Assembly: GCA_036874045.1 (NCBI GenBank)
Contig: CM072345.1
Location: forward strand, 5,667,501-5,731,500
Source: Cymodocea nodosa
Taxonomy: Eukaryota; Streptophyta; Magnoliopsida; Alismatales; Cymodoceaceae
Length of the DNA stretch: 64,000 bases
Direction: 5' to 3'
Below are positions 15,262-63,120 of the stretch, piece after piece. Within the stretch, counting starts at the first letter, position 1. Every line of letters begins with the position of its first letter. A program made the translations under genes and the position numbers. The notes below the pieces were generated by a model. The model ran no database searches. It was not told the origin of the DNA and was given only the letters and a program-made list of their open reading frames with translations.

Positions 15262-15443
15262 TTTGTTACTAATCTTTGATATAAAATCGATACCAACTTA
15301 TTTAATATCATTGCTTATTCTGCCTTGTTTTTAAACAAAAATTAATATCTGAGCATACATTTAACCTTCTTGATTTAAGGCTCTAGTTGTTTTAAAGTTT
15401 TTAAACTGTTTAAAATCAAATAGGTTGAAAAATCTAAGGTAAG

Positions 15444-16400: not shown

Positions 16401-16421
16401 AAGTTTTACAAGAAAAAGGCT

Positions 16422-19003: not shown

Positions 19004-19024
19004 TCTAAAGGTGATAATGATGAT

Positions 19025-19873: not shown

Positions 19874-19989
19874 TTATTTCAATAGGTTCTTTCAATTTGC
19901 AGAAGATAATTTGAAGACTGTGATCTAGCTACTGTAGATTTTATTTCCTTTAAAGAACATGATTCAATCATTGATGCTACTTTTGATAT

Positions 19990-26632: not shown

Positions 26633-26751
26633 GATCGTGGTATAAAAGGTTATCTACTTTTTTAATAGAACAAAGATATATCATGGGAAAAGTAGACCAT
26701 ACTCTATTTATCAAAAGAGATGATAAAGATTAGATTGTTGTTCAAATATAT
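26633..26751 (+). repeat. 119-bp direct repeat, right copy
   Basis: Second copy of the RT segment at 19755-19873. It starts immediately at the outer end of the X LTR (CTAACA|GATCGTGG) and runs into the remainder of D's reverse transcriptase. Confidence 0.92.
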
Positions 26752-31385: not shown

Positions 31386-31390
31386 AACAA

Positions 31391-38216: not shown

Positions 38217-38237
38217 ATAATTTGCTATATCAGCATA

Positions 38238-39598: not shown

Positions 39599-40275
39599 CG
39601 TGGGGTTAGTGCCTGACGGAATTCAGCTGATGGAAAGGAAAATTATTGAATTCCGTTAGAATACTGTTAGGGGGGGTTAGTGCCTGACGGAATTCAGCTG
39701 ACGGAAAGGAAAATTATTGAATTCCGTCAGAATGCTGTTAGTGTGCATTACACTTGATGGAAAGGAAAGTCGGATTTTACCGTTGTATAGAATCCAAAAA
39801 TTTCCTTTACCGTCAGAAAATTTCCGATCACCCCCATTCAGAAAATTTTTCTCCCTCTCTCGTGCCTGACGGAATTCGTAAGACTGATAAGGAAGATTTA
39901 CTTGAGGACCTGCTAGATGAGTTGGAAGAGTTAAATATTATTGATGACATACAACCAATGGGAGAGATACATATAGAAAGCAATGCCCAGGTTTGAATGA
40001 CTCAAGAACAAAGAAAAGAAATGGCAGATAAGATGCAAGAAGATATGATGATGGCAATGTGGGATGGAAGAACTAGATGATATTATTTCGTATTGTAATA
40101 TTTCAATTAAGATGTATTTGTATTTTTCGAATATTAGTTGTAATAAACTTTTGTCAGAATTTCCATCAGAATTTTCTGTCCTGCACTAAACCCCTCTCAG
40201 AATTTCCTTTTCCTTTCCGTTACAAATTTTCCATTTCCTTTCCGTCAGAATTTTCCGTCATGCACTAACACGCCC
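39599..40275. mobile_element. Non-autonomous PIF/Harbinger-like DNA transposon (677 bp)
   Basis: The ends are imperfect inverted repeats (CGTGGGGTTAGTGCCTGACGG on the left; the complement of the right end reads GGGCGTGTTAGTGCATGACGG) flanked by TTA at 39596-39598 and 40276-40278, the 3-bp target typical of PIF/Harbinger. Both terminal repeats are doubled: the left end repeats at a 71-bp period (from about 39604 and 39675), the right end at about 79 bp (40183 and 40262). A remnant plus-strand frame at about 39880-40075 (DLLDELEELNIIDD, then MADKMQEDMMMAMWDG) may be the tail of a transposase; it is far too short to act. Family assignment is moderate. Confidence 0.65.
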
Positions 40276-40278
40276 TTA

Positions 40279-40932
40279 GTCTTCTCTGAGGTTGCCTAGA
40301 TGGAGCATAACTAGGATCCAAATGAATTCTATGAGTACAAATAGAAGGGCTTATTCCTTTAATATCCTCCATAGTCCATCCAATAGCTCTTCTATTTTCC
40401 TTAAGCACTTCAACTAATTGAGCTTCTTGATCCCTAGTCAGATGGGCAGAAATAATAACAGGCCACTTCTCACATTCTCCCAAAAATACGTACTTGAGAT
40501 CTACAGGTAGTGGTTTCAATTCTAGTTGAACTTGCTCTACTAGCTCAACTTTATTTGATTCAGCCACTTCCACTTGGTTAGCTTCGTTGATCTCAATGAA
40601 AGTGTCATCTTCGAAATCACTTGATACAGAAAAGTAGTCTTCATCAATGTCAACCTCAAGGCTGGCTTCATCCTCTTCAAAAGAATCTTTACCTTCTTCA
40701 AATACATCAACCAGGTTAACTTCAAATTCTTCCTCTAATTGATCTCGCATGCCACTTTCCACATTAAAAACATTTAGTTGCGACTTCTAATCTCCACATG
40801 TGATCTGCATAAAACCTTCCCTGCAACCAATATAAGCATCAATTGTTGCTAAAAAGGGACGACCTAAAATTAATGAGGCACTATTCTTAAGGTCTATAAT
40901 GGGACGATTTTTTATAATGATGAAGTCTATAG
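40279..40932 (-). pseudogene. F: protease end and protease-RT linker
   Basis: Acidic sequence (LEEEFEVNLVDVFEEGKDSF ... EVDIDEDYFSVSSDFEDD) then the usual Athila stretch before RT (LPVDLKYVFLGECEKWPVII, VEVLKENRRAIGWTMEDIKG, SPSICTHRIHLDPSYAPSRQ). The part at 40800-40930 is protease end (ASLILGRPFLAT-like and the region cut by element I at 40937). It is a broken fossil. Confidence 0.85.
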
Positions 40933-40937
40933 GGTAT

Positions 40938-42944
40938 TGTTTGGGTTTTCCTAGCACTACACTAGAAAAACTTGGATTTGTTACTTCTATTTTTACTTAG
41001 TTAATTTATCTTTATGCCTATTCTCTCTTTTAGAAGTAAACAAACAACCTTTAATACAATTTAGATATTAATTCCAATTTGTACTTTAATTGCAAGTGCA
41101 TAGTGTCTATTATATCAGTGTACAGGTACAGGTCGATCCCTTAGGGAATTGCTGACGAACTTGAGAACTGTTTGTTTGTTAAAAATCAAATTTATATATT
41201 CAATAAGCTCTCCATTGAATTACAACTAACTCAACGGACTAACATCGTGGACTTAAGTTAACTCCACGAGCCTGCCTTTTCTTTTTAATACTGCTATTTA
41301 CAAAGGAATTCGGCCAACCATTGGGCGATTCCACAGATTGTAAATAACATCAATTAAGCTCTTTAATGCTAGTTAACATTGGATTTATCATTAAGCAATA
41401 CTAACATTCAGATAATTCAAACAATAACCATTAAAATCTTTAAGTCTTTTGAACGAATCAATTTCAGTAAACTGTAAAACTAAAGTAAACATAAAACAAT
41501 CACAACACTGACAAAGATAACATTAATCACGATACAATACAACACTCAAATACAACATACAAACATAGATAAATTGTTTTTGGTATTTTTGTTTTAATAT
41601 GAACATGGAAATGGGTGATAGGTGAAATGTAAAGTAATCTCACTTGACAGTAAATGCTTCTGACACTACTTGCAACGCGATTACACCACTGAAAATTAAA
41701 TCCCTTACAATCCTGTCTCCTCTCCCTATAGAATCGTGAGTCCAGAATTGCAAGATGATCTCCTCTTCAGCATACAGGCGTCAACCCGAAGCCAAGGCTA
41801 AAAGCTTTACGATCTCCTGAAATATGAGTCAACACTTGGTGAAAATGGCTTCCCTTCCTACGACGCGATCACTCCTCACAGTGGTTGTCAAGCACTATGT
41901 TTGGTTCGGAATCAACCCGACATCAGGCAAGTATCCTCACAGACCTTTGATGGTTGGTGATTATGGTGGTGATGGTGATGATGATGATTGGTGTGGTACT
42001 TCAGAGAATTGCGTCGCTAATCCTCCTCTACACACACTGTCCGCCCATCGATCACACACTTCTTCTTTTTTCTTCTTTTCTTTTATATTTCTTCAGTAGT
42101 AACTGCTTCTGCTTGAATGGTCGGTTGGATTTCCTTCATTCGTATTAATGGTGATGATTTCTTTCCCTACGCGATACGTGCAAACGTGGTTTTTCTCCTC
42201 CAACTGTCTGTTCCTACAACCACTATAGTGGCATATTAGAAAATATATAGTCCGTGGAGTTACAGATAACTCAACGAACTTTCTTCGTTGATTTAACTAT
42301 AAAACACGTGCATAAATTTAACTATCCGATGCTTAGGTGCATTTCGGATACTTATAAACTTAACTATCCGATGCTCAGATGCATTTCGGATACTTACAAA
42401 TAACTCATCGATATATAACTTAAGTAAATCTACCAAATCTCAACACGTGTCAGCAGTAGTTTAATCATAAAATAACATTTCGAAGAGTTAGAGGTCTAAC
42501 TATCCGCTGCTCAGATGCATTTCGAATAGTTACAGCTAACTCACTGAAAGTTCACTTAAGTCATTCATTATGGTTTTGACACGTGTACTTCAGGAAATAA
42601 TAAAATATTCTCTCAAAACATAACTATTCGACAATTTAAACATAACTATCCAATACATATTCGGTTTGTTAAACATAACTGTCCGAATTTGTTCGGTATG
42701 TTAAACATAACTGTCCGAAATATTAGAAAATTCGGATACTTAAGAATTTCACAGCCTACAACTTACCGACAGTTCATAAATGTACTAAATTAACATTAAT
42801 TCCCCCAATTTAAGTGGATTCTTCAATTAAAGCATATAACAGTGCAATTATAACATAATGGCTTAATTCTTATATGATAAGCTAAATATTATGCAATTAA
42901 CCATCATTTAACCGTTAATAATATGCACTTTTTCATTCTAAACA
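40938..42944 (-). mobile_element. 3' LTR of I (2007 bp)
   Basis: From TGTTTGGGTTTTCC to TTCATTCTAAACA. It holds a TATA box on the minus strand (TATAAAAG, about 42081-42088), a GC-richer leader (about 41700-42060) and an array of CCGATGCTCAGATGCATTTCGG / AACTGTCCGAA motifs at 42240-42760. It contains about 200 bp (41065-41265) missing from the 5' LTR. Confidence 0.92.
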
Positions 42945-44735
42945 CTTCCCCCATACCTAAATTTTGCTAGTCCCTTGGCAATCTAAGATCTAATTAATTG
43001 GTCTTTCAAAAAGTGCTAGAATTAATTTTTCCCCTTTTGTTTTTCTTTTGTTTAGCATAAAAATATATTCTATATGTTTTAGTAATCAACCTGCAAATAT
43101 ACTTAGAATATATACAAATTACATACAAAGTATATCATCATCACATAAGTGTTAATTATATTATCGTTTGTTCTTCTTTTCATCATCTGTCATCCTGAAT
43201 TTTCCAATAAGATTTCTAGAAGAAATTTCAACAACATACGAATCAAAATACAATCTAATTCAATATGATTAAGACAAGTAGAATAAAGAATTGTATCTCC
43301 ATTAAACAACTTCAAAAGTCAATTCCAGATTCATATTTCAGCAATTCTAGATAACAGAAAATATACTCGATTCATAAGATATCTATATTTCACAAAACAC
43401 TTGTATCTTTTCAGAATAGTATATGTTTTTTTTCTTTTTCTTTTCTTTTTTTTCGTACTTTAAAAGTTAATTTGACAAGCTTGAATCATACAAGAGCTTT
43501 CTAATGTACCCATGTAACGAGCTTTCAGTCAACAATCCTAGATCTGATCAGGATCTTAGGTTGCCAGATTTTAAGAGTCATTTTCAAGTCAACAATCCTT
43601 ATATACCTATCTGCTCAAGTACAAAATGCTCATGATCAAACAAGTCAATAAAGTCTCAAAATTTTCCCTTTTTTTTCTTTTTATTATTTTTTTTTTTTTC
43701 CAATCAAAACTACAAACACAAAACAAAACATTAATCACATACTCTATATGTATGTATTTCATTAATACAGATGTAGTAAAACGCCAATCTCATATAGTCA
43801 TGCTTCTATCAGTTACTGAAAATATGAATCCATAACAATAACCTCATACTTTTTCTATAGTTTAATAAGATCTACACATAAATCATTCTACAAGTTCAAT
43901 CAGTCAAATTAAATGTATCTTTAATCATATGTGTTTCATTTAATCTAGAATTCACATCTTAGCTCCTTTAGGACTTCAGATAATTTACTAATTTTTTTCA
44001 TTAAGCATTCTGATTTCATTTTAAAATCGTGAAACTATTAAACTCATGAAATTCAGAAAAACATAAGATACTATATCTAGATTTGCATAAATAATAAATT
44101 CAATAGCATCTTATATAGCCTTCTAAATATAATAGTCAAGTAGTTTATAAAAATTTTATAGTCTCATTTATCGGATAGTTATAGCAAGTTCATAAAATTT
44201 TCAATTTCCTCAAAACTTTGCAGTACCATTTTAATTTCTTTCATTAACAAACTTACATGGTTGTTACTTCAATTACCTCCCCCCCATACCTACATTTTTC
44301 ATTGTCCTCAATGTAAAAAGAGTTCACAATAAGTACAGTAATTGTAGCAGGCATGAATACAGTTTTGCTTGATTTAAAATTCAGGATGAGTAATTAGTTA
44401 CATACCTTGTTTCATTTGTATCTCCTTCTGCATATTCCAATTTTTTGATTCTGAAAAACTTTTCATTCATAGATAAAAGCAAAATATAAAACAAAATAAC
44501 ATTTAACAGATATTAATAAATCAGTGTCTTGTGTGGAACCCAAGCTCCTATGCCTTTGGTGGCTCACAAGCAAGCCAGTTGATTTCCTAGAACAAATACC
44601 AACAAATTGGATTGATATTTTGTTTTTTTTTTTTTCTTTTATAAAATAAAAATGAAAACTATAAACTTTTTTCTCTTTTTTTTTTTTTTTTAACAATAAA
44701 TGCAAAATACACACAACATTAAACACACAAAATCA
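42945..44735 (-). other. I: 3' noncoding region
   Basis: No gene is seen. The polypurine tract beside the LTR reads GGTATGGGGGAAG on the minus strand (42945-42957). A second block (GGTATGGGGGGAGG) lies at about 44276-44290 beside a TTCATTGTCCTCAATGTAAA phrase shared with F. T-rich runs at about 43428-43455, 43665-43700 and 44620-44690 are polypurine on the element strand. About 43190-43990 is homologous to the spacer of copia element D (27900-28690). Confidence 0.7.
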
Positions 44736-44739
44736 TAGC

Positions 44740-45888
44740 TTAAGAACATGATTGAAAAGTAGAAACAAATGGAATAAATGTATCAGTCCAAGCAAACTTT
44801 TTAGGCATAGTTCTTCTTGTTATTAATTCTGTTTTAATGCAGTTTTTGTTCCTTCTTAATTTGTAAACATGCAATATATTATAAATTCCAAATACGAGTG
44901 TATTACCATTAATGATATGTAATGCAGAAAAGGATCCTTTTTGGTTCCAAGGTAATGTAGCAGTTTCTATTTCTACATCTATTTCAATACACTCCTCTTC
45001 CCACTTCCATTCATTTATGTCTTTCATAATCCATATTTGAAATTTCATCAATTCATCCCACCATCTTATCAGACATAAAGTAGGATCATCTTCTTCATTA
45101 TACCACATTCCTATTTGAATTTCATTAAATTCTGTAGATGGTGGTTTAGCTATTTCACTTGGTATAGGTAAAATTTCTATATATTCATCATAACTGTCTA
45201 TGCTCACTATGTATAAATCAGATCTATATGCTATTGATATCTTTGTGATTAAATAGATATATCCATCAAGTATGACATGTGTTTGGTTAATTAATGATTT
45301 ATGTCCTAGATATATGATAATGTTTTCATTCCAAGATCTGTTCAGAAAATTATACACACTTAAGCGTAAATCTTCACCCCAATTTCTTGTAGGTCTCCAA
45401 TAATATAATTTATCAGGAATTGCAGAATTTTCATCAGAAAATATTAAAGTTGACCCACAATTTACAGTTGGTGCTTCAAATCTATTAGGTTTTCCTATAT
45501 TCCATTCTTCTCCTGTTATAGGATTTCTTATCAAAATATCAGGTAATAATAAACTTGCATACCTTGGTCTCGTCTTGTATATGATTAATCCTTCATCTAT
45601 CCCCATAATATGATTTATTCCTTCTAATGCATTGGGTGGAATTCCAATAGTTTCTTCCATAGTTAGATATTCATGGGTATTTGAACTACGATTAAATGAC
45701 CTCCATATGAATCATTCTCTAATCTTAGTCATTTTTGCAGCTTGTAGTCCTTGAAAATATTTTTCTTCAATACAGTCTTTAATTTCCTTTGATACACAAC
45801 ACAACCTGCATAGATCTTTAGCTAACAAGTTACTTAATACTTCCCTTAGTGCATCCATTAGTAATTGCATCAATTCCATTTGTCGATT
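44740..45888 (-). CDS. F-box-like protein with F-box-associated domain, carried by element I
   Basis: A 306-residue open frame (45660-44740, MEETIGIPPNALEGINHIMG) with the look of a plant F-box-associated domain: LIRNPITGEEWNIGKPNR, VILDGYIYLITK, LYIVSIDSYDEYIEILPIP, LCLIRWWDELMKFQIWIMKD and NTLVFGIYNILHVYKL. Just upstream on the same strand (about 45860-45730) is an F-box-like stretch (LLAKDLCRLCCVSKEIKDCI). A splice-acceptor-like TTATGTTTTACAG ends at 45889. F-box proteins bind SKP1 in SCF ubiquitin ligases and choose targets. Its place between gag and the 3' LTR suggests capture of host sequence by the retroelement. Whether it is expressed is unknown. Alternative: an unrelated element ORF with similar repeats; I think this less likely. 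Confidence 0.62.
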
Positions 45889-46017
45889 CTGTAAAACATA
45901 AACAAAAATTTAGTAGAGACAAAAATTAACCTAACTACTGCACACCCTTGTGGAGTTAAGGCATAACTCAACAGACTAAGTTCGTTGAGTTAAAAATTAA
46001 CTCTACGATACTATTAA

Positions 46018-47255
46018 CTAAAAATAAAAAACATATATACATACAGATAGTTGCTTCAGATATGCTGCTTCATTCAGCTGCCCTCCTAGAAGAGGTATCA
46101 ATTTCATTAACCGTTCTATTGACAAGATTAGGTATAGCTTGTATTGGTAATCCTCCAGTAGGTCTAACTTCCATTGGTTCCTTCTGTCTAAGTGATATAT
46201 TTCTATTCTAATTTTGAATTGCAGCATTTCCAAATATAAATTCTAGACGATTGTTTACTTATTGGATTATCTTTTCTAATTTCTCTATTCTAGCTCCTTG
46301 TTCAATTAATACTTCATAACTTATGTTTTTCTCATTTATATTTTCTCCTCCCTGGAAATTGTTGTTTCTCCATGATAAATTCGGGTGATTTCTCCAATTA
46401 GGATGATAAGAATTTCCCAAGTTATCTCTCTGGTTTCTAGCATAAATAATATCTAAGTCATTTATGTTTGCATTCCTTTCCGCTGGCTTTTGATTTAATG
46501 ATAACTCTTCTATTTTCTTTGTTAATTCATTTAATTTCACCTCAAGCATAGTATTGGAATCTATTTCATGCATTCCTCTTGGCAATATTCTTTGATCTGC
46601 AATAGCTTTAGTCAAATTTTCCCACTATGCAGTTCTTTTTGCAAAGTTTTCTAAATATGCCCATGCTTCTTCACTACACAATTTTAAAAATCCATTTTGA
46701 CAAGTAGATTCTAATAAAGATTTTGTTGAAACATCTATGCCTTCATAAATTATACCTATTAATTGTGCTTTACTCATTGCATGATGTGGACATTGAGTCA
46801 GTAAATCTTTAAATCTTTCAAAATATTTCCAGAATGATTCACCCTGTTTTTGGCTACACATTAATATTTCTTTCTTCTTTTTAATCGTTTGATGTGTTGG
46901 ATAATATTTTTCCAGAAAAACAGAGCAAAATTCAGTCCATGTAGAAATTGAATCAAACAATAGAGTATATAACCATCTTTTAGCTGTCTTTTAAAGAAAA
47001 AGGGATATATCTCAGTTTAATAGCATCTATACTCATGTTCGGCATTTTCATCATTTGACAAACTTCGTTAAATTCTCTAAGGAAATAATAGGCATCCTCT
47101 CTTTCTAATCCATGAAAATGTGGTAATTGACTAATATAATTAGATTTCAGTTCAAACCTATCTCCCTCAAAGTTTGGTAATCAAATACATGAAGGTTCAT
47201 CAATTAATTCAGGATACAGAATCTCTCCTAATGGTTTTTCTACTAGAACAGCCAT
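46018..47255 (-). pseudogene. I: gag (capsid), located after integrase and third ORF
   Basis: Athila-like gag from about 47255 (MAVLVEKPLGEILYPELIDE), with NFEGDRFELKSNYISQLPHF, GLEREDAYYFLREFNEVC, STWTEFCSVFLEKYYPTHQT, GESFWKYFERFKDLLTQCPH and LIGIIYEGIDVSTKSLLE. A linker (LNELTKKIEELSLNQKPAER) follows and then YHPNWRNHPNLSWRNN. As in F, no Cys-His box lies between linker and NPxWRNHP. A splice-acceptor-like stretch (GAATTTTCATTGTAG) ends at 47340. It is a fossil. Confidence 0.88.
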
Positions 47256-48360
47256 CTCTACGTTCTCTTTTAAAGAAAGGTTAGCTACACCCCAAAGAAT
47301 TTTGTTAAAGTTCAATTCAGAAAATTTTTCAGTACTCCTCTACAATGAAAATTCCTAGGTAGGTGTTCTTACTAATCGTTTAGTGCTTAGAGAATGAGTC
47401 CATGTGCTCATAAATAAATAGCAGAAGATTAATTGCATACCAGTTTGAAGCTTTCCATTCTATAAATATTTGTTGTCGGATGAAGTTGAGTCAGCTGCTT
47501 CTCCTTCCAGTTCCTCCAACGCATTCTCCTTTCTTTTAAAAGTGTTGGTAACTCGTAAATAACATTCTGTTTTATATATATACTGCGCATCCATAAAGTG
47601 AATAAATCTCGTTGCAAGAACGTATCTTGCAACGTGCATCGTGGTTCCTGTTTATATGGGTACGTGTACCACTACTAATTTCAAATTTTGGTAACCGCTA
47701 AACTGACGAAGCTTCGTTCGTGGTTAAAAGAATAACCGTTCTGCTTAATCCACGAACTAACCTCGTTGAGTTATAGAAAACTCAACAGAACATAGTCGGT
47801 TATTGTTGCTAACTACACGGACTAACTTCGTTGAGTTACAGATAACTTAACGAAGTGACTTTATATTATATTACTGACCTCGTGGAGTTACGGTTAACTA
47901 AACAAACTAAGTTCGTTGAGTTAACACTTGGCAACTTCTAAGTTTTACTCTTGTAAGTTCCTCTCTATTCTTTTTTCTTTCTTTTTCATTCTGCTAACTG
48001 TAATAAAGTTAAATCTATATCATTAATGCATCATTTTGATTAAAATACATTTAAATCTGAACATTATATAAAGATTTAACTTGCAGGTCATTTTATGTTA
48101 TGCAAAATTTACATTTTACCTTATAACATGTAGAAATTTTTAAGCAGTTATCCTGTCATTCAGCAAATTGTAAATCTGTTACATATTCATTCATAAATTT
48201 TCACAATATCATAATATTCAATAAATTCCATTCATTTCACATTCAAAACACGTATGAAAATTGCATCTAAAAAATTTACATTCATTAATATGAATCAATT
48301 ACAATACAAGTACATCATACAATTTCATACAATTTTACATAAGTAAACAAACAATACAAT
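47256..48360 (-). promoter_or_regulatory. I: spacer before gag, motif array and TATA-like box
   Basis: No gene is seen. The minus strand carries an array of CGTTGAGTTA motifs and complements at about 47700-47935 (for example TTCGTTGAGTTACAGATAAC), then a TATA-like TATATATATAAAAC at about 47569-47582, then gag about 300 bp further on. The arrangement copies that of the LTR promoters. Function as an internal promoter is inferred. The part at 47990-48360 is plain AT-rich. Confidence 0.45.
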
Positions 48361-49560
48361 TTAATCTCTATGCCTAAGTTCATCTACTTCCTTTTGGAGT
48401 TTTTCTAATTGAAGTTCTAATTGATTAATCCTCTCTACAGCTCTTGTAATTCCTCTAGAAGGTACTGTTAGTTCTACAACTACAAAATTCCTATATTCTT
48501 TCACTAAAATGGTTCTTGATCTGATCCTTTTTGATGTCCATTTAGTGAAATCGATACAGTCCACCATCAGTAGTGGAATCAAATCTCCATAAAATAATTT
48601 CTTCTTCACTGTTTTCAGCTTGGAGACAAAAACTGCAGACCAATTTATTTGGATCTTATTTACAACTACATACGTGGCCCATTTGACAAATTGACTTAAT
48701 TCTATGTCATGGCTCTGTCGTTGATAGACATTCTTAATCAGAATGTTAGCTACCATGTGTGCTTTACCATTTAAATGATTCAATCTGTTTAATAATGGCA
48801 CACCAGGATTGATAGCTAAACAATCCTTAATTTGCTGTTCAGTCCATTCAACTGTAATTGTATCTTCCAAAATTTTTGTTCCTTCATTCTTTAAACCAAA
48901 TATGTTGTGGAGAAGCTCTGGTGTTATCTGTACATCAGCTTCCTCCACGTTTGAAATTAATCCTCCTTCTCTCTCTCAAATTTGCATAGAAACAGGGCAC
49001 TAAATTTTCATATACTACATGCCCTCTTTCTTGAGATATAAATTGCAGTAGACCTTGGAATTCAAATAATTCTTTGATTTCTTGCATTCCATCCCAATTT
49101 ACTGGTCTACTGTAAATAATGTCATAACCCCTTATTTCTTGATATTTGGTATAAGCTTCCTGACTACAAAAATGTACTTCATTCAAAATTGTTGTTTCAA
49201 TCAAGTCAGGAAGGTGACTTTATTGCTCTTGAGGGGTTTGTTCTTGATCTTCCTCTAGCATAGGCTGCATCTGGACATTCTCTTCAGATTCCTGGATTTT
49301 TGCTTTTGCTTCTGTCTGTGGTGGTGAGCTGGCAAAACTCTCCACTCTGTCTTGAATTCTCTCCATAAATTGCTGAAGAATTTCTTGTTCTTCAGTCGAA
49401 TCTGTGAAATTATTTTTGTCCAAATGGCTTCTTTTAGCCTCTTCATTTTCTTCACTTTCTTGCTCCTCCTGACTACCAATCTGTTCTATTACTGTTCTTT
49501 CTGATTCTGTAACAGATTGGGATGGAGTCACGGGCAATTCAGTTTCTGCCCTAATTTTAG
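48361..49560 (-). pseudogene. I: third ORF, plant-transposon-protein-like
   Basis: An acidic N-terminal part (49537-49220; IEQIGSQEEQESEENEEAKR) leads into a globular domain (49204-48361) with MQEIKELFEFQGLLQFISQE, ENLVPCFYANLRERR, ITPELLHNIFGLKNEGTKIL, NGKAHMVANILIKNVYQRQS, VNKIQINWSAVFVSKLKTVK and DLIPLLMV, and a C-terminal heptad stretch (INQLELQLEKLQKEVDELRH). It matches the third ORF of D motif by motif. The pattern resembles Pfam PF20167-type 'putative plant transposon protein' domains. It lies where Athila env-like ORFs lie, but I see no clear membrane segment. It is a fossil. Confidence 0.72.
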
Positions 49561-50036
49561 GCGGGTAATCGGGTCATTTCCCGAACCAACTATTACTATT
49601 TTATCCGCAATCTTAGCTACAATACTCTGTTGAGTTACAGTTAACTCAACGAAATAAGCTCGTTGACTAACTCAAGATGCAACGGAGTAAGCTCGTTGAG
49701 TTAAGCGTAACTCAATGGACTCCCCGTACAAGCAAATATAATAAAAATATTACAAAGAATAGTTTTTCTATTTTTTTACCGGTTTAACCGATACTATGTA
49801 TAGGTCAGACTTAAATATTTTTTATTTTTATTATTTTTCTTTCTGTTGAATCGATATTATGCTTCGGTAAAACCAATATTTTTTTTTTTGAAAATTAATA
49901 TACATTTTTTTATGTTCCGATCATACTGATGGATCCAATCGGCTGAACCGCAACTATTTTTATGTTTTATATATATTTTTAATGTTTTTTTTTTTATATA
50001 TATAAACAAAAAAACTGACTTCTTACTAAATAAAGC
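49561..50036 (-). promoter_or_regulatory. I: spacer before third ORF with motif array
   Basis: No gene is seen. An array of GTTGAGTTA/TAACTCAACGA motifs sits at about 49615-49720, just upstream (element sense) of the third ORF. The rest is T-rich, with TTACCGGTTTAACCGATA-like phrases at 49785-50000. Confidence 0.45.
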
Positions 50037-51300
50037 TCGAGTAGTCCTCTACTCTAACTTCTTCTATAATTCCAAAGGAGCTTTTTGGTGTTTTCAAAAT
50101 AGGTTTAAGTCTTTGTCCATTTACTTTAAATATATTCTGATTTTTAGGATTTTCAATTTCAATAGCTCCATAAGGATAAACATTTCAAACTATGTAAGGT
50201 CCTGCCCATCTAGATTTCAATTTTCCTAGATGGTTATGGAGTCTAGCCATATAAAGATATACTTCTTGTCCTATTTCAAAGCTTTTAGGAATAATTTTTC
50301 TATCATGCCAAAATTTAATTTTTTATTTTCCTATTACAGTCTTCGAATAAGCTTCATTTCTAAATTCTTCTAATTCAATTAATTGCATTTTTCTATTTTC
50401 AGCAACTTGATTTAAATTAGTGTTCAAAGTTTTTAATGCCCAATAAGCTTTATGTTCTATTTCAGTAGGTAAATGACAACTTTTTCCATATACTAGCCTA
50501 AAAGGTGACATACCTAAGCTCGTTTTATAAGCAGTTATATAAGCCCAAAGTGCATCTACCAATCTATTAGCCTAATCTGTCCTAGTAGGATTTATTACTT
50601 TTTCCAAGATTAGTTTAATTTGTTTGTTTGCACTTTCTACTTGTCCACTTGTTTACGGATGATATGATGTTGCAATTTTGTGGTTTACTCCATATTTCTT
50701 CATTAAGGCTTCAAAACTTCTATTACAGAAATGAGTTCCTCTATCACTGATAATAGCTTTAGGTATTCCAAATCTAGCAAATATATTTGTTTTTATAAAT
50801 TGAATTACCACTTTGTTGTCATTAGTTTTTGTAGGAATAGCTTCTATCTATTTTGATACATAATCCACTCTCAACAATATGTAATTAAATTGATTAGACA
50901 TAGGAAATAGACCCATAAAATCTATTCCCCACACATCAAAGATATCAACCTCAATAATAAGATTAAGAGGCATCATATTCCTCTTTGATATTTTTCCTAT
51001 TTGTTGACATCTTAAACAACTTAAGCAATATTTATGAGCATATTTGAATAGTGTTGGCCAATAAAACCCACATTGAAGAATTTTTGCAGCAGTTTTCCCT
51101 GAACCAAAATGTCCTCCACAAGCTTGGTCATAACAGAAAGACAATATGCTCGGATATTCAGTTTCTGGAACACACCTCCTTAAAACCAGATCAAGACATT
51201 TCTTAAATAAGTATGGGTCTTCCCAATAGTAATATTTTACTCTTGAGAAAAATAATTTCTTATCGTGTCTATTCCAATCCTTAGGTGTTAAACCAGTAAC
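50037..51300 (-). pseudogene. I: integrase
   Basis: Zinc-binding part (FCYDQACGGHFGSGKTAAKI, CLRCQQIGKISKRN), core start (VDIFDVWGIDFMGLFPMSNQ), C-terminal part (GMSPFRLVYGKSCHLPTEIE, about 50500; and a stretch to 50037 reading like LYMARLHNHLGKLKSRWAGP...NVYPYGAIEIENP). The KSCHLPTEIEHKAYWALK phrase marks Athila-like integrase. It is a broken fossil. Confidence 0.9.
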
Positions 51301-51351
51301 TAAGTAATTAACTATGTCTGTATACCAAGGTATTGTGTTAATGGTTATTAA

Positions 51352-52655
51352 CTATTCATCAGGAAAATTATCCTTAATTTCAATATTTGATTTTTCTATT
51401 TGTAATCTTGATAAATGATCTTCTACTACATTCTCACAACCTTTTTTATCTTTAATTTCTAGATCAAATTCTTGTAATAATAATATCCATCGGATCAATC
51501 TAGGTTTAGTTTCTTTTTTCTTTATTAGATGTTTTAGAGCTGAATGATCCGTGCATACTATTACTTTAGCTCTAATCAGATATGATCTAAACTTTTCTAA
51601 AGCAAACACAACAGCTAATAATTCTTTTTCAGTAGTTGTCTAATTAACTTGAGCATCATTTAAGGTTTTACTTGCATAATAAATCACTCTAGGAGATTTT
51701 TCTATCTTCTGTCCTAACACTACTCCTACAGCAAAATCAAAAGCATCGCACATTAATTCAAATGGATAGTTCCAATCAGGTGCTTGAATTATAGGAGTTG
51801 AAATTAAGCTAGTCTTAAGTTTGAAAAATGCTTCCTTGCAATTTTTATCAAAGTTAAATGGAACATCTTTTAATAGATTAGTTAAAGGTCTAGCTATCTT
51901 GCTAAAGTCTTTAATAAATCTTCTATAAAAACCAGCATGTCCTAGAAATGATCTGATATCTTTTACTGATTTAGGTTCTAGTAGATTAGAAATTACTTCT
52001 ATTTTAGCTTTATCTACTTCTAACCCTTTTTTAGAAACAACATGCCCTAAGACTATTCCTTGTTTAACCATGAAGTGACATTTTTCCCAATTTAAAACCA
52101 GATTTTTTTCCACACAGCGTTTTAATATTTGGTCTAAATTACTTAAACACACTTCATATGAGTTGCCATATACAGTAAAATCATCCATAAATATTTCTAA
52201 AAAATCTTCAATCATTCCAGTAAATATGCCCTGCACACACCTTTGAAAGGTAGCTGGCGCATTGCATAATCCGAATGGTATTCTTTTAAAAGCATAAGTT
52301 CCATTAGGACAGGTGAAAGTTGTTTTCTCTTGATCCTCTAATGCTACTGGAATTTGATTATACCCTGAATACCCGTCTAGGAAACAAAAATATTTTTGCC
52401 CTGCTAATCTTTCCAGCATTTGATCTATAAAAGGTAAGAGAAAATGATCTTTCCTAGTCACAGCATTCAACTTTCTATAGTCTATACATACTCTCCAGCT
52501 TGATTGAATTCTAGTAAGGATCAAGTCTTGACTTTCATTCCTAATAACTGTTAATCCTGATTTCTTGGGAACTACATGGATTGGACTAACCCACGAGCTA
52601 TCAGAAATCGGATAAATTATATCATTATCTAACCATTTAACTATTTAGAGGTTTG
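51352..52655 (-). pseudogene. I: reverse transcriptase and RNase H
   Basis: RT: SSWRVCIDYRKLNAVTRKDH, FLDGYSGYNQIPVALEDQEK, FKRIPFGLCNAPATFQRCVQ and FLEIFMDDFTVYGNSYEVCL (catalytic aspartate block, about 52170). The tether follows (FIKDFSKIARPLTNLLKD). RNase [41 protein letters not shown] and [11 protein letters not shown]. Overall better kept than in F, in few open pieces. It is a fossil. Confidence 0.93.
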
Positions 52656-52658
52656 GAT

Positions 52659-54257
52659 TTAATCTACTTCTTTAAGGTTTGGATTTAATCTCCTCTTAGG
52701 AATTCTAACAGGTTTAGCATTCTCTTCTAAATATATGTGGTGACAACATAAAGTTGAACTTAACCCTTTTATATCAGTCATAGTCCATCCTATTGCTTCT
52801 TTATAACTTTTTACTACATCTTTTAATTTAGCTATTTGATCCTCTTTTAAATCTGAAGCAATAATGATTGGACAGGTTCGTTTATCTTCCAGGAATATAT
52901 AGGTTAATTCAAGAGGTAAATGTTTTAATTCTAAATGCTGCCCATCAAAAGCTACAACTCCTAACTGAACATCATCATTTTTTAAATTAATTTCTTCCCG
53001 ATCTCCTTCTATATTTATGCTTTCACTTTCTTCTAAAATTTCAGAATTGATTTGCCTATTTAATTCTTCTTGAATCACATCATCTAACATATCTCCTTCA
53101 TCCTCTAAAAAGTCTATGGTATGTAAGGACATTTCTAACTCCTCAAACCTTTCTGGTTTGAAAATATTTAATTGAATATCCTCATTACCATATGCTAACT
53201 TCATTACTCCTGTTTTACAATTGATAACAGCCCCTGATGTTGCTAAAAATGGTCTTCCCAAAATTAAAGATGTATCACTATTTTTATGCTTAATTTGTTG
53301 GGAATCCAAAATTACAATATCAATAGGATATATAAAATTTTTTATTTTAATTAAGACATCCTCTATTTTTCCTCTAAGGTATCTTATACTTCTATCAGCT
53401 AATTGAATAGCCATACTAGTAGGAGTTAAGTCTTCTAATCCTAAGGATGCAAATGTATCACTTGGCATAACATTTATATCTGCACCTAAGTCTATTAAAG
53501 TTCTTTCTAGAATGGTATTTCCTACGGTGCATGATATAACAGGGATTCCAAGATCAAATAACTTTTTAGGAATTTGTGGCAGAAATAAGGAACTACTTTG
53601 CTCAGCTAAAAAGACATTTCTAAGAACTTTTCGCTCTCTTTTCTTAGTACACCAATCCTTAAGAAATTTAGCACAAAGTGGCATTTTCTGCAATAGATCT
53701 AACAAAGGAATGTTAACTTGTACTTTTTCAAAAATTTCTCTGATTTTCTCTTGTCTTTCAGGTATTGTTTGTTGTAATCTTTCAGGATAGGGTGCTAAAG
53801 ATTTTGATTTCAAAGACTCTTTTTCTTTCAGTTGATTTGTTTGATCATTTTTAGCTTCATTCGTAGATTTAGATTGTTCTTCAGTGATTTCTAGATTTTC
53901 AGCTATATTTTCATTATCATTTTGATTTTTACTCTTGTCCACCTTCATATCATTTTCATTTTGAGTTCTTGGTGGTATATCAATTCTAGATCTTAATGTT
54001 ACACATACATCTTCCAAATTTTCGTTACTTTCATGATGTTTTTGTATATCATTTTTGTGATTATGATCTTCAATTGTCTTTAGTTTTAAAGTGCATTCTT
54101 TAAATTCTCTTGCATTAGTCTTTTCTGTTTGCTGTATATTTTGCAAATTATGCAGGTTTATAACATTATAATTTTCATTGTCCTGTTGCATAACTTGTAT
54201 TTTCATTGCATTTTCGTTTAATGCTTTTACTTTTGTTTCCAGATCATCTATTTTCAT
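52659..54257 (-). pseudogene. I: protease polyprotein segment
   Basis: One long open stretch of 532 residues. The N-terminal third is charged and asparagine-rich, then PYPERLQQTIPERQEKIREI, the Athila signature VNIPLLDLLQKMPLCAKFLK, the protease (PVISCTVGNTILERTLIDLG, then ADINVMPSDTFASLGL and SLILGRPFLATSGAVINC) and the pre-RT linker (KSYKEAIGWTMTDIKGLSST). The aspartic protease cleaves the polyprotein. It stands near the 5' end of the element, with no capsid in front of it. Confidence 0.9.
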
Positions 54258-54368
54258 TGCATTCGATTTTTGATCAATTTTCTTTATGGCTTTTTCTGTT
54301 TCGTAAATTATATCTTTTTTAGGTTCTGAATATGCCTCCTTATAGTTTAATTGGTTGACTTCTTGTTG

Positions 54369-54701
54369 TTAACACACAAAGTATTCCAGTTTATCCAGAT
54401 TTTGCTCTATACTATGCTCCAGTCTATCATAGCTATCCCAAACTTCAGTGTCTCTCATCATATTATACATTCTATACTGACCATCAGTTGGGTAAACTAT
54501 AGGATTCTCATACTCGGCTCTATTATATTGAGGATAATTCATTTGTTGTTCATGGGATCTAACCATCTGTAAATGTCTCAATTTCAAACAGTCAGAAATG
54601 TCGTGTCCTTCAGAATTGCAGAATTCACATATGATAATTACAGGTTTCAGAAATCTTTGAGCATAAGCATATGCCATATTCTCAATTACAGAAGAAAACA
54701 T
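54369..54701 (-). pseudogene. I: Cys-His box ORF at the 5' end
   Basis: Short frame (MFSSVIENMAYAYAQRFLKP) with one CCHC zinc knuckle (CEFCNSEGHDISDC) near residues 26-39, then a tyrosine/glutamine-rich tail. It begins only about 100 bp inside the primer site. The knuckle normally lies in the C-terminal half of gag; here it opens the element and the capsid part is 7 kb downstream. Confidence 0.8.
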
Positions 54702-54738
54702 ACAACTCTGGCTATTAAAACGAAACAGCTCTAATAGT

Positions 54739-54809
54739 TGCTTAATTCAATTCAAATCAATTCAATTCAATTCAAGTCAATTCAATTCAATTCCCCGACA
54801 ACGGCGCCA
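54739..54809 (-). other. Primer binding site of I (tRNA-Asp type) and adjoining pentamer repeat
   Basis: The minus strand reads TGGCGCCGTTGTCGGGGA (54809-54792), differing at one base from the plant tRNA-Asp 3'-end complement, a primer used by Athila-group elements. It is 7 nt inside the LTR. Next to it 54739-54790 is a TTCAA pentamer run of about ten imperfect units. Confidence 0.88.
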
Positions 54810-54816
54810 TAAAACT

Positions 54817-56605
54817 TGTTTGGGTTTTCCTAGCACTATACTAGAAAAACTTGGATTTGTTACTTTTGTTTTTACTTAGTTAATTTATTTTTATGCCTAT
54901 TCTCTCTTTTAGAAGTAAACAAACAACCTTTAATATCATTGTGGACTTAAGTTAACTCCACGAGCCTGCCTTTTCTTTTTAATACTGCTATTTACAGAGG
55001 AATTTGGCCAACCATTGGGCGATTCCATAGATTGTAAATAACATCAATTAAGCTCTTTAATGCTAGTTAACATTGGATTTATCATTAAGCAATACTAACA
55101 TTTAGATAATTCAAACAGTAACCATTAAAATCTTTAAGTCTTTTGAACGAACCAATTTCAATAAACTGTAAAACTAAAGTAAACATAAAACAATCACAAC
55201 ACTAACAAAGATAACATTAATCACGATACAACACAAACAATACAACACTCAAATACAACATACAAACATAGATAAATTGTTTTTGGTATTTTTGTTTTAA
55301 TATGAACATGGAAATGGGCGATAGGTGAAATGTAAAGTAATCTCACTTGACAGTAAATACTTCTGACACTACTTGCAACGCGATTACACTACTGAAAATT
55401 AAATCACTTACAATCTTGTCTCCTCTCCCTATAGAATCGCGAGTCCAGAATTGTAAGATGATCTCCTCTTCAGTATACAGGCATCAACCCAAAGCCAAGG
55501 CTAAAAGCTTTACGATCTCTTGAAATATGAGTCGGCACTTTGTGAAAATGGCTTCCCTTCCCGCGACGCGATCACTCCTCACAGTAGTTGTTAGGCACTA
55601 TGTTTGGTTCGGAATCGACCCGACATTAGGCAAGTATCCTCATAGACCTCCGATGGTTGGTGATTATGGTGGTGATGGTGATGATGATGATTGGTGTGGT
55701 ACTTCAGAGAATTACGTCGCCGATCCTCCTCTGCACACATTGTCCGCCCATCGATCACACACTTCTTCTTTTTTCTTCTTTTCTTTTATATTTCTTCAAT
55801 AGTAACTGCTTCTGCTTGAATGGTCAATTGGATTTCCTTCATTCGTATTAACGATGATGATTTCTTTCCCTACGCGATACGTGCAAACGTGATTTTTCTC
55901 CTCCAACTATCTGTTCCTGCAACCGCTACAGTGGCATATTAGAAAATATATAGTCCATGGAATTACAGATAACTCAACAGACTTTCTTCGTTGATTTAAC
56001 TATAAAACACGTGCATAAATTTAACTATCCGATGCTTAGATACATTTCGGATACTTACAAATAACTCACCGATATATAACTTATGTAAATCTACCAAATC
56101 TCAACACGTGTCAACAACAGTTTAATCATAAAATAACATTTCGGAGAGTTACAGGTATAACTATCCGATGCTCAGATGCATTTCGGATAGTTACAGCTAA
56201 CTCACCGAAAGTTCACTTAAGTCATTCATTTTGGTTTTGACACATGTACTTCAGGAAATAATAAAATATTCTCTCAAAACATAACTGTTCGGCAATTTAA
56301 ACATAACTATCTGATACATATTCAGTCTGTTAAACATAATTGTCTGAATTTATTTGGTATGTTAAACATAACTATCCGAAATATCAGAAAATTCAGATAC
56401 TTAAGAATTTCACAGCCTGCAACTTACCGACAGTTCATAAATGTACTAAATTAACATTAATTCCCCCAATTTAAGCAGATTCTTCAATTAAAGCATATAA
56501 TAGTGCAATTATAACATAATGGCTTAATTCTTATATGATAAGCTAAATATTATGCAATTAACCATCATTTAACCGTTAATAATATGCACTTTTTCATTCT
56601 AAACA
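54817..56605 (-). mobile_element. 5' LTR of I (1789 bp)
   Basis: TGTTTGGGTTTTCC to TTCATTCTAAACA. TATA box TATAAAAG on the minus strand at about 55784-55791, GC-richer leader about 55440-55760, and a donor-like ATT|GTAAGTGA on the minus strand near 55409-55419. Motif array at 55930-56420. A length difference of about 200 bp from the 3' LTR lies near 54935. Confidence 0.92.
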
Positions 56606-56610
56606 GGTAT

Positions 56611-57689
56611 ATAAAATCTTGGACCTTAATCAGGAGGTCTTCTACTATTCCAAGAGGTGTCCTTAAAGATCTATCAGCTAGGCGAATTACTATTCTTGTT
56701 GGTTGCAAGCAGCTTAACCCTAGTTCTTCATAAATGCTAGAAGGCATAACATTCACTAGGGCTCCTTAGTCTAATAAGGCTCCTTCAAAAGTAGTTTTTC
56801 CTATAATACATGAAATAGTAGGAGTCCTAGGATCATTATACTTTCTAGGAATATAATTATAAAAATAAAAACTACTTGCTTCCGCTAAGTTTACACTCTT
56901 AGGTATCTTCCTAGCTCTCTTCTTAGTACATAGATCTTTTAAGAACTTAGCATGCAAGGGAACTTGTTGAATTAACTCCAATAAAGGTATTTTCACTCTC
57001 ACTTGCTCAAAGGTTTCTCTAATCTTATATAACTTATCTCCCCCTGATTCAACTCTAAGTCTAGTAGGGTAAGGAGCACTAGTAGATGATTCAATTGGGA
57101 CATCAGCTACTTGCTTACCCTTATCACTTCTAGAGATAACTATAGGATCTTCAGAAATTTCTACTCTAGATGGATTGCAACAAGGCTCTAGAGGACTCAT
57201 GGATAGAGGAATTTCACCACTAGTCCTACTCACTTCCTTACCTGACCTTAAAGTAACAAATGCATCCATTTGTTTTCCAAGGTCATCACATGTTGCATCC
57301 ACATCAATTGGATCAGCATGAAAAACATTCTTACTATCACTACTAACAGATTTCTCTTTAGCAATGTTGTCCATAATTGCATTAAATTTATCTATATCTT
57401 CGCTTAGATCTATACTACATGCATGATAAGAATTTTCAAATTTACTAGTAAATGCATATGCATGATTAGGTAAATCATGGTGAATATATGAATCATATTT
57501 CATGCATGGAAGATGATTACTTTCATATTCTAATACATTACATGGCATGCTAGAATTTTGTTCATGAAGCATATCATTTGGGCATTCACTAGTAACATGA
57601 TCACTTGCAAAACAAGAAAAGCATGATGGCATAAAATCATTTTCATCATAGCCATAATATTCATCAACCTGGCTTGACCAATCATCCAT
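56611..57689 (-). pseudogene. F: Cys-His box and protease ORF at the 5' end
   Basis: Starts MDDWSSQVDEYYGYDENDFM at 57689. A CCHC knuckle (CFSCFASDHVTSEC) occupies residues about 22-35, followed by a long acidic stretch, then PYPTRLRVESGGDKLYKIRE, VKIPLLELIQQVPLHAKFLK and protease (PTISCIIGKTTFEGALLD, then NVMPSSIYEELGLSCLQPTR). It is interrupted at 56606 by element I. As in I, no capsid precedes it. It is a broken fossil. Confidence 0.88.
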
Positions 57690-58452
57690 GGCAAATAAGC
57701 TCTAATTCAAATACAAAGAAAATAAAGATTCAATGACTAAGTTAATCTTTACCAGCCTTTGTTTTTAATTTTTTTTTTTTTCACTCTTCAAGTGATTCAC
57801 TATTAGTCAAATCTACATAAAGTAGCAACCAAATGAGTAACTTTAATCCATTTTAAATGAAAGAATGACTACACAATGAAAGAATAAATAATAATTAAAT
57901 GAAGAAAATTAAAGAATAATGCAGTATAAATACAAGATTACCTATACAACAATTTCCCAATTCATTCTAGATTAACTAATGAATCTATTTTCAAATTGAA
58001 ATTGCAAGCTAGTCTGACTTTGAAAAATCATAACTTTTTGCATACAACTCCGAATTAAGCATACAAATACTCTACAGAAACATCTAAACCTGAACTTTAC
58101 AGGAAAAATATAGAAAAAATTCGCAGCAAGTCTTGCAAACAGCAGAATTAAATTTTCCGGTTACAAGTTTGCATTTCAGAATAATTACAAATACTATACA
58201 CTTAAACTTTCGTATAGAAGGTATGTCCTATTGACTACTGATTTTAAATCATCACATATTATTGACAAAACCCATCTGAATATGAAGTAATAATATGGTA
58301 TATCAAGAATATATATTACAAACAAAACAAATTGAACTACACATTAAAACAAGTAAATACACATAACACAAAAGAATATACACAATGAACAATCATCACT
58401 TTTCAAAGATCCGTTAAAAACACCAAAGAAATTCGGTAAAAACATAACCAAA
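57690..58452 (-). other. F: 5' leader
   Basis: About 760 bp between primer site and first ORF, AT-rich, with a poly-T run (57767-57781). No gene or clear structure is seen. Confidence 0.6.
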
Positions 58453-58470
58453 TCCTCAGCAATGGCGCCA
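58453..58470 (-). other. Primer binding site of F (tRNA-Asp type)
   Basis: The minus strand reads TGGCGCCATTGCTGAGGA, three differences from the tRNA-Asp complement, 6 nt inside the LTR that starts at 58477. Confidence 0.82.
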
Positions 58471-58476
58471 AAAACT

Positions 58477-60574
58477 TGTTGAGGATTTTGTTGTCCCCAA
58501 AATAAGATCTTAAAACTCACAAAGGGACCAAAATGATAAAACATTAAACTCAAAACTCATTTTAAAATAACCGCAAGCGCACGGTGCAATTATAATATAC
58601 TCCAACGAGTACGGTTCGAATCCACAAAGATTTGGCTTTTACAAAATATTTCTAAGGTGTAAAAACAATAATAATTACAAGTGATTCAAAACTTATCAAA
58701 AATTCACTCAATAGAGTATAAATTCCTCATTTTCATTCATAAAACACTAAATCACTACAGCACAGAATCTCGAAATTCAGTCAAGTTCACACATATCCTC
58801 CTCTCAGTATCTCAATGGTAAAATACAGTAAAAATATCATACTGAGTATTCATTGGATTAACTTTACAACCCTACTGATTTCGTTAAAATATCTGAAATA
58901 GTCAAGCGTCGGCAATGCTTTTCCTACAAACACGCAGACTAGCAATTAATATCCCTGAATTGCGCACAGTTACTAAAAATGGCATAAGATTTTCAAATCT
59001 GCACGAAAATCTGCAAAATCAGTGTGCTTCGAAATTTAACTCATTCATCTAACATAAAAAATTTATAGAAGTCGATTTCGTTCTATAGATAAAAAGAAAT
59101 CGAGTTTGGCACTGAAGCAAAAATTGGGCGAAAAACGCCAGGATACGCTAGAAGCGACATCAACGAAATAAATTGGAAAACCTATACAAATCGATTGTAA
59201 AAAATCTAAAAGATATACAGGAGTAAAGTAAACTCGAAGCTCTACAAAATAGAATCAAAAACTAAAGCAAAATATCACTGGACCAGTGAGTTACGACCTA
59301 AACAAAATTGTCAAATTTACAAGATTCTAAACCAACGATCAACATCCACAAATTAGCTTTGTTAGCATACAAATATTCACATATGCACAAGATTCAAACC
59401 AAATTCGTTTCCATTCATTCAAAATAAACATAATAAACTACTGAAATGAAAGTTCTATGATTAAATTACAATGTAACATTACAACTAAACCTAAAACTAC
59501 CATTACCCTACTGAAATTACAAATAACTCAACTTTAAACAAGAAAATGAAAACCTAAAGAGCTAAACCAATACAACCCTTTTTACCTTGAAGTGCAAACT
59601 TGTTTTGGAGAAGAATGGTGCATGAGATGTGCTCCTAGCCATCCTCCTAGCCAAAAATTTTGAGGCTGTCACCACACGAATCCTCTTCCAGAAGCGAGAG
59701 GTCTTCAAACACCACCAAACACCAAGAAACAAGTAGTCATCCACCTAAAGTCCACAACCCTTGCCTTTCTTCTACAAGGAATGATCCACGGAAGAGGGGA
59801 GACAGTTGCACGGCTTCAGATGTGCTCTAAATAGCACCCACAAGGTCTGGAAAAGATGCCCTAGCCGTCCTCCTACTAGCAACCACCAAGAGAGGAAAAG
59901 AAGAGGTTGGCCGAACCTTGTCTTCCACCTTGGAGCTCCACGAGAGGGGGGAGAAACACCACCTTCCACGAGTTCTTAAGGGGGGGGAGAGGGGCTGACG
60001 ACTTTCAAGGGCTGGAATGAGGGAAAGCTCGTCCAAGAGAGGGGAATTGGTAGCCTTGCCTCTCCTTTTATAGAGGCTTCAAGTGGTGGGACTTGATCTC
60101 CACCTTTGATCTTCAATCCAAGGGTTGAGATTCCTCTTATCTTGATTTGCTTTATTTTTCCTATTCTTCAACCTATAAAACTCAAACAAATACATTAAAG
60201 CACTCAAGAAATAAGATAAGATATATTCCTAAACATGGATACTTCAAAAGGGCCAAAAATCACATTTTTCATTGAATTCCAGAAATACCCATGTACTTAT
60301 TTAAATACTTAATCCTAAGTACTAAAGTAAATTTAATCTACTTAATAAAATGAAATTGTGTTGCCACCAAGATGTAAATGTGTTTACATGAAATGCTAAA
60401 TAACAAATAGAGTCTCATTTATGCATTACTTTCTTCATTTAAGCCCATAACTACATTATTTGCCTAAAATGCATTATAACTTAAATCTTCATTAAACACT
60501 TATGAGTATATGGCTTTAAACACATAAAATGCATCACTTAACTATATAAAATATGCATAAATTATGACTCTACA
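58477..60574 (-). mobile_element. 5' LTR of F
   Basis: TGTTGAGGATTTTG to TTATGACTCTACA, the same length as the 3' LTR. The TATA box on the minus strand lies at about 60065-60075. The last 510 bp differ from the 3' LTR at about five positions only, whereas an interior stretch (about 59045-59350) differs at about 27 of 310. Confidence 0.93.
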
Positions 60575-60579
60575 AACAA

Positions 60580-62794: not shown

Positions 62795-62799
62795 AGTTC

Positions 62800-63120
62800 T
62801 TATATGACCTTTTTACAAAAAGAATACTAACTCAACAAGTTCTCTTAACATGCACTATACATGATACAAAATTGTAACTTTAAAACATATCATGTTTTAT
62901 AATAAAAACACACGTTAACTTAACGTTTAGTTAAATAAAAAGTTAGTATAACTTAACGACTAGTTACTTAGCATAATTTCAGATCTATTACAAACAAGCA
63001 TATGATATTAAACTTTTTCTATATTAATTAATATTCTTAATTTACTTTCATAAACAATATTAATTGATTAGATATGATTACTACATTTTACACATATCAT
63101 CAAAATATAATACTCAAAAA
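62800..63120 (-). mobile_element. 5' LTR of E, distal part
   Basis: Continuation of 12520-13662 after the D insertion. The minus strand begins with the LTR start (the plus strand ends ATCAAAATATAATACTCAA at about 63118, complement of the family start). It repeats, in reverse, the first 320 bp of the D LTR. It marks the outer end of E. Confidence 0.85.

Follow-up and report, generated by a model that had tools for sequence, protein, structure and literature searches.

The DNA analyzed here is a stretch of 64,000 nucleotides from Cymodocea nodosa (bases 5667501-5731500 of contig CM072345.1; hereafter the window). Self-comparison revealed two Ty3/gypsy retrotransposons with long terminal repeats (LTRs), both on the minus strand: element F (31391-60574) and, nested within it, element I (40938-56605), which was inserted into the protease (PR) of F. 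Both possess the marks of LTR retrotransposons, i.e., an LTR pair, a target-site duplication of 5 bp, a primer binding site and a polypurine tract. Along the minus strand, each element starts with a CCHC box and PR, followed by reverse transcriptase (RT), RNase H (RH) and integrase (IN), and the capsid part of gag comes last. Pfam scans of pieces placed Retrotrans_gag after RT, RH and IN in both elements, and window matches of capsid queries were confined to the two 3' gags. The gag-last order claimed by the original prediction was, hence, borne out by open reading frames (ORFs) and Pfam matches, the PR match of I being weak. The predicted span, 40938-60574, was correct at the start of I and at the end of F, but F itself extends down to 31391; both elements were recognized, while the nesting and two further genes of I, ORF X and an F-box ORF, had been missed.

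The LTRs of F (5' LTR, 58477-60574; 3' LTR, 31391-33488) were 96.8% identical, with a Kimura two-parameter (K2P) distance of 0.033, and the element was flanked by AACAA on the plus strand, read directly at 31386-31390 and 60575-60579. The primer binding site TGGCGCCATTGC... (58453-58470, minus strand, as all parts given below for F and I) follows 6 nt after the LTR and is of the tRNA-Asp type. The first part of the 5' ORF (56606-57689) comprises an ATG, a CCHC box (57623-57582), the motif TLRSGK (57254-57237) and the start of PR, where it is broken off by I; no Pfam family was found for 56769-57701 at E 0.1. Beyond I, the remainder of PR and the PR-RT linker (40268-40937) were recognized by similarity to the PR ORF of I. 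RT (38844-39494; PF00078, RVT_1, 4.4e-27), RH (38241-38735; PF17917, 5.5e-38) and IN (36933-38237; PF17921 and PF00665, rve, 4.5e-21; C-terminal part by similarity to I) precede the 3' gag, which spans 35361-36590 (36590 approximate) and matched PF03732 (Retrotrans_gag) with 3.7e-10 at 36177-36530. This gag, interrupted by stops, consists of a capsid (about 36530-35955), a box-less linker, NPGWRNHP, LPSQPAPNPR (35456-35427) and a stop codon. A G-rich polypurine tract (33489-33500) was read before the 3' LTR.

Element I is flanked by GGTAT on the plus strand (40933-40937 and 56606-56610). Its primer binding site TGGCGCCGTTGTCGGGGA (54792-54809) lies 7 nt after the 5' LTR (54817-56605). The 5' ORF opens with a segment bearing the CCHC box (54372-54746, box 54629-54588; no Pfam family), followed by the PR ORF (52662-54368), which was assigned by similarity to F and by a match to PF13650 under the Pfam cut-off (4.2e-4). 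RT and RH (51355-52644; PF00078, RVT_1, 3.8e-31; PF17919, 8e-16) and IN (50095-51351; PF17921, integrase zinc domain, 1.4e-11) come next. The 3' gag (46262-47201; PF03732, Retrotrans_gag, 1.4e-17 at 46628-46990) consists of a capsid, a linker without CCHC box and HPNWRNHPNLSW. Between IN and gag lies the extra ORF X (48364-49573; no Pfam family over cut-off), and gag is followed by the F-box ORF (44743-45909), with an F-box at 45715-45909 (PF00646, 7.8e-7) and an F-box-associated part at 44743-45711 (FBA_1, 0.0026, under cut-off). A G-rich polypurine tract (42945-42955) precedes the 3' LTR (40938-42944). The two LTRs of I were about 94% identical in their aligned parts, with a K2P of 0.052. 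The inner element, thus, has more divergent LTRs than the outer one (0.052 vs. 0.033), which contradicts the nesting if LTR divergence is read as age. Faster decay of I through C-to-T change is a possible reason, since its LTRs differ by 81 transitions and only 8 transversions.

F and I are clearly distinct elements, as predicted: amino-acid identity was 70% for RT, 65-69% for RH, 52-70% for IN and 37-66% for the capsid, depending on the piece. Each 5' ORF is headed by one CCHC box, and no CCHC box is present in the 3' gag of either element, which likewise agrees with what had been claimed for the front of the PR ORF and for the gag linker.

In order to determine whether this order recurs, the host genome (374.6 Mb, 28 contigs) was searched for Retrotrans_gag; 150 places were scored of 4640 candidates, and 29 of the 150 were fetched with their surroundings (L loci; L001-L008 repeat parts of L009-L016 and were counted once). 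In 25 of the 29 loci, on many contigs, IN preceded the capsid on the same strand, at a distance of about 0.4 kb in F-like and g3 copies (g3 being a subfamily described below) and, for the I-type, of up to 4.2 kb. ORF X took the place of IN upstream of the capsid in L034. In L030, L031 and L037, the fetched stretch contained no IN, and the capsid was immediately preceded by the spacer that separates X and gag in I. The normal order was found in none of the 29 loci, i.e., PR and RT, which come after the capsid in a normal element, did not follow it in any of them. Behind the capsid, an F-type LTR was found in 9 loci and an I-type LTR in 7. L019 and L038 together represent a further copy with both LTRs (97.2% identity), the duplication AATCT and the same order, although with an internal deletion in RT-IN; target-site duplications were, therefore, found in three copies. 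In L040, the primer site is followed by 1.6 kb without capsid match and then by the ATG of the CCHC-PR ORF. Parts of a second element lay downstream in L010 (CCHC-PR behind an I-type LTR), L018, L022 and L024; the second capsid of L018 starts at query residue 14 directly behind an F LTR, which indicates an F copy within an I-type gag. Short PR matches at LTR ends (L012, L025 and L031) are LTR matches, since the query piece F_PR2 included 59 bases of the I LTR. The original prediction had suspected a property of a lineage rather than an accident of one copy and had named a host-genome search, and a search for relatives with the same LTRs but gag before PR, as its checks. Its suspicion held: the order recurred in the 25 loci, three copies had LTR pairs with target-site duplications, none of the 29 loci showed gag before PR, and the trees described below agree.

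Normally ordered relatives were sought with two canonical gag-PR proteins, P0023 from Populus alba (537 residues) and P0077 from Lathyrus (452 residues). With P0023, 6520 candidates yielded 81 matches. Of these, 79 had their start no earlier than residue 162, and the other two began at residue 123 and at residue 87, the latter being the site of the CCHC-like box of P0023; none of the 81 reached the tail of its capsid or started before residue 87. When these matches were paired with the 150 gag places at distances of up to 15 kb, the capsid lay 2.8-5.4 kb downstream of PR on the same strand in 10 of 10 pairs. All 93 matches to P0077, from 8534 candidates, started at residue 2 and none continued past residue 298; nine ended at residue 285-298, across its TLRSGK, and 17 were free of stops in open frames of 423-454 residues. 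Thus, no normally ordered Athila element was seen in the host genome among the best-scoring candidates of both canonical queries.

A search with the 5' ORF of F, limited to proteins of up to 544 residues, gave 88 homologs, none of them with an Athila label and all from plants where a species was named; the permuted arrangement was not seen among these 88. The PR tree comprised 58 rows, namely 49 of the homologs and nine permuted rows (coverage above 150 residues). In this tree, all nine permuted rows grouped together as a single clade (100/99, stem 0.46), which was nested within the gag-PR homologs from other plants. Capsid and IN trees were calculated from 19 shared rows out of 26 sequences, of which 24 came from the loci and two were F and I. 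Both separated four subfamilies, I-type, L027, g3 and F-type, with deep forks that were firm only in part; because the subfamilies were the same, gag and pol seem to have stayed together during descent. The 3' capsid is under purifying selection, with a median pairwise dN/dS of 0.14 within the F-type (F_CA1, 48 pairs) and of 0.26 within the I-type (I_CA2, 45 pairs).

The original prediction had further assumed that gag was cut between capsid and nucleocapsid. This did not hold, since the 3' gag of subfamilies g3 (L010, L016, L021 and L022) and g4 (L036) consists of a capsid, a linker, a CCHC box and NPxWRNHP, and the tail motif is 3' as well. A foreign stretch splits the 3' gag of L021; the 3' box has a changed first residue in L015 and a stop codon inside in L027. 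A CCHC box is also found at the start of the 5' ORF in L015, L016, L018, L019, L027, L040, F and I, and in L039 with one residue changed. F-type and I-type gags have no box, not even in L026 and L033, whose open frames are long. The 3' gag ended with LPSQPxPNPR or a close variant, with a stop 6-21 residues further on, in 14 copies including F, while TLRSGK was found in the 5' ORF of F, L018, L027, L028, L039 and L040. In relatives, an LPSQPxPNPR-type motif is followed by TLRSGK after 6-23 residues (both present in 31 of the 88 proteins), and homologs with a box and an NPGW-like motif have these in canonical order before TLRSGK. The whole gag thus sits 3', with the division near the gag-PR border, since the 3' gag runs to the tail motif that precedes TLRSGK in relatives. 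F and I have lost the box of their 3' gag; this loss looks derived, because, in the PR and capsid trees, F is grouped with g3 and L027, which have the box, and not with I. The 5' box, in turn, may be the old nucleocapsid box: in F, 123 residues separate it from TLRSGK, and in P0077 the corresponding spacing is 125, although it is as large as 192 in other relatives.

Taken together, F and I very probably belong to one multi-copy Athila-like lineage with the ancestral layout LTR-primer site-pol (CCHC-PR-RT-RH-IN)-gag-polypurine tract-LTR, in which gag and Pol would be made separately. A purely local event, in which misassembly or recombination with another element moved gag behind IN, is hardly conceivable. 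The window is indeed a nest of elements, but the same order was found in 25 of 29 loci on many contigs, with ORF X or the X-gag spacer in the other four, three copies had LTR pairs and target-site duplications, and capsid and IN trees gave the same subfamilies; this candidate was rejected as contradicted by independent copies. A single cut that sent the capsid to the 3' end and left the CCHC box at the 5' end is very improbable. Although it would produce exactly the distribution seen in F and I, and although the box-TLRSGK distance of F is near that of P0077 and P0023 (about 128 residues; 160-192 in the relatives P0078, P0066, P0082 and P0002), it is at odds with the box between capsid and NPxWRNHP in g3 and g4, with the 3' position of the gag tail motif and with the derived appearance of the box loss in the PR and capsid trees, which is weak in the IN tree. 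The elements might also be non-autonomous, with the 3' gag as a passenger and capsids supplied by normally ordered relatives. The stops in gag of many copies and the carriage of other 3' genes (F-box ORF and ORF X) fit this idea; it is nonetheless unlikely, given that no match spanning gag and PR was present among the places scored with either canonical query (81 of 6520 and 93 of 8534 candidates), that the capsid is under purifying selection and that 17 of the 93 gag matches were stop-free in long open frames.

The origin of the order leaves more room for alternatives. It may have arisen in a single permutation step, by an LTR landing at the gag-PR border, with no second gag gained. That the break falls within the short stretch separating LPSQPxPNPR from TLRSGK speaks for such a step, which is possible, if rather doubtful: two CCHC boxes are present in g3 and L027, I-type gag frames extend to NISLR, a possible remnant of TLRSGK, and the nine P0077 matches that end at residue 285-298 cross its TLRSGK. 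The 5' ORF of I still contains VTLRS, a hint that the two parts overlap. The presence of two CCHC boxes instead suggests that a second gag was gained behind IN; a second copy would have arrived 3' of IN, and the 5' capsid would have been lost afterwards.

Several observations weigh against a gag-last lineage with separately made gag and Pol, or against parts of the evidence for it. All copies come from one genome only, and the gag places were the best-scoring 150 of the 4640, not a random sample. L031 (4530-8992 of this locus), an I-type copy with LTR, damaged primer site, the spacer behind IN, the end of ORF X, gag and F-box, resembles an LTR-gag arrangement without pol; it was read as a pol-deleted copy because the damaged primer site, the spacer and the end of ORF X were kept before gag. 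In the PR tree, the sister group of the permuted clade was weakly supported (84/58), the midpoint root was arbitrary, and the homologs had been found with F's own 5' ORF. Deep forks of the IN tree were weak (61/37), and L027 grouped there with I. High median dN/dS values were obtained for the gag tail F_CA2 in g3 (1.04), for I_CA3 (0.66) and for the F-box ORF (0.69), and gag of many copies contains stops, so present-day activity is not claimed. Finally, a scan for splice acceptors before gag, with a scoring matrix that was our own approximation, stayed within the range of shuffled sequences in 10 of 11 regions (26-190 of 200 shuffles as good; 2 of 200 in the remaining region). In 6 of the 11 regions, the highest-scoring site preceded the capsid piece by 212-270 bases. 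Neither result was used as evidence.

As to the additional genes of the I-type, ORF X was also present in other I-type copies, and an F-box gene was found behind gag in many of them (I itself, L020, L023, L025, L026 and L029-L034); in L034, gag and the F-box-associated part form a single open frame of 677 residues. A relative of ORF X without Pfam family over cut-off adjoins the left end of F on the plus strand (30653-31354) and may belong to a further element of this kind that F has cut. Elsewhere in the window, 8494-10764 is about 83-88% similar to the F LTR in opposite orientation, with no capsid or pol matches beside it, and was read as a putative solo or broken LTR. Common repeats, direct and inverted, with about 76-92% identity occupy 11073-16691 and 61306-63120. 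By eye, the ORF at 15810-16388 resembles a copia gag with CCHC box, and pieces of Ty1/copia-type polyproteins were recognized in ORF translations at 1249-4640 (minus strand) and 18095-27402 (plus strand).

The lineage resembles the Athila clade (Athila4, Calypso and Diaspora) in the PR/RT/RH/IN order of pol, in a primer site that follows the LTR within a few bases, and in motifs of the NPGWRNHP and TLRSGK types, which also occur in the gag-PR homologs; unlike there, its pol starts with its own ATG and a CCHC box. F and I carry the primer-site motif TGGCGCC(A/G)TTG at a distance of 6-7 nt from the LTR, and L040 has the motif as well. We take it to be of the Asp type from its likeness to that of Diaspora. 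In Diaspora, the primer site for tRNA-Asp lies 5 bp after the LTR, according to PMC1142308. Diaspora also has a long 5' leader of 873 bp, comparable to about 0.76 kb in F and 1.6 kb in L040, the leader of I being short. Its gag and pol form a single ORF with gag in front (PMC1142308), whereas gag is separate and follows IN here. The order that defines the Athila clade is GAG-PROT-RT-RH-INT, as set out in PMC6317226. Since gag follows IN in F, I and 25 of the 29 loci, the lineage was not classed as an ordinary Athila member. The same paper describes Athila as lacking the second RNase H (aRH), unlike Tat, and Athila ORF-1 (PF03078) as present in 16% of Athila elements. PF03078, which is no required feature, gave no match in 28 protein scans of window pieces (two being repeats), and general Pfam scans, none aimed at aRH, detected one RNase H only. 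A scan of viral contigs with the RT of I gave no match.

Other systems share single aspects of this arrangement. Athila-like elements with an env-like ORF have an extra gene between IN and the 3' LTR, but here the gene at that position is gag. Plant envelope-class elements were reportedly described as spliced by Vicient in 2001. In spumaviruses (foamy viruses), Pol is made apart from Gag, as proposed here; unlike here, Gag comes first and Pol is made from spliced RNA. Penelope-like elements with permuted domains are said to have been described by Craig in 2021; they too are a retroelement clade with permuted domain order, but they are not LTR retrotransposons of the Ty3/gypsy kind, and they are not known to involve gag. 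In PMC9033089 and PMC8775202, the word 'permuted' occurs only as a reference to Penelope-like elements. Of the bdelloid rotifer elements treated in PMC5408684, Juno has an extra zinc knuckle in pol upstream of RT and Vesta1b a gag without knuckles, but gag is ORF1 and pol is ORF2 in both. No plant element with gag after IN was described among the literature matches listed (titles and abstract openings), and the novelty of the gag-last order rests on these literature searches.

How a lineage of this layout would be expressed can be proposed from its gene order. The ancestral pol ORF would have had its own ATG and an N-terminal CCHC box, and the ancestral gag a capsid, a CCHC box and a tail. With pol first and provided with its own ATG, Pol presumably cannot arise as a Gag-Pol readthrough product, and gag, thousands of bases from the RNA start, would need a spliced or internal RNA. 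Pol would be translated alone from genomic RNA without Gag-Pol fusion, and Gag from a spliced subgenomic RNA, as are env-like genes in that position. The CCHC box on Pol could help to unite Pol with the genomic RNA, replacing the Gag-Pol fusion as the packaging link, and may be the reason that the Gag box could be lost in F and I. Loss of this box in the F-type and the I-type, which are not sisters in the PR and capsid trees, fits such a link. Tentatively, Pol may be uncoupled from Gag in this way, coming first and alone with its own nucleocapsid-like knuckle for RNA packaging, with Gag made from a separate 3' RNA and its box dispensable and lost at least two times.

In LTR retroelements, the ratio of Gag to Pol and the entry of Pol into the particle are governed by gag standing first and by the Gag-Pol fusion. 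With the capsid gene behind the enzyme genes, the usual single fused capsid-enzyme protein cannot apply, and a multi-copy gag-last lineage must solve the Gag:Pol ratio and the entry of Pol otherwise. In the reference survey of plant LTR elements (PMC6317226), all elements whose domains stood in an unexpected order were dropped as probable mispredictions. Standard annotation may, therefore, miss such lineages, and similar gag-last lineages may sit unseen in other plants.

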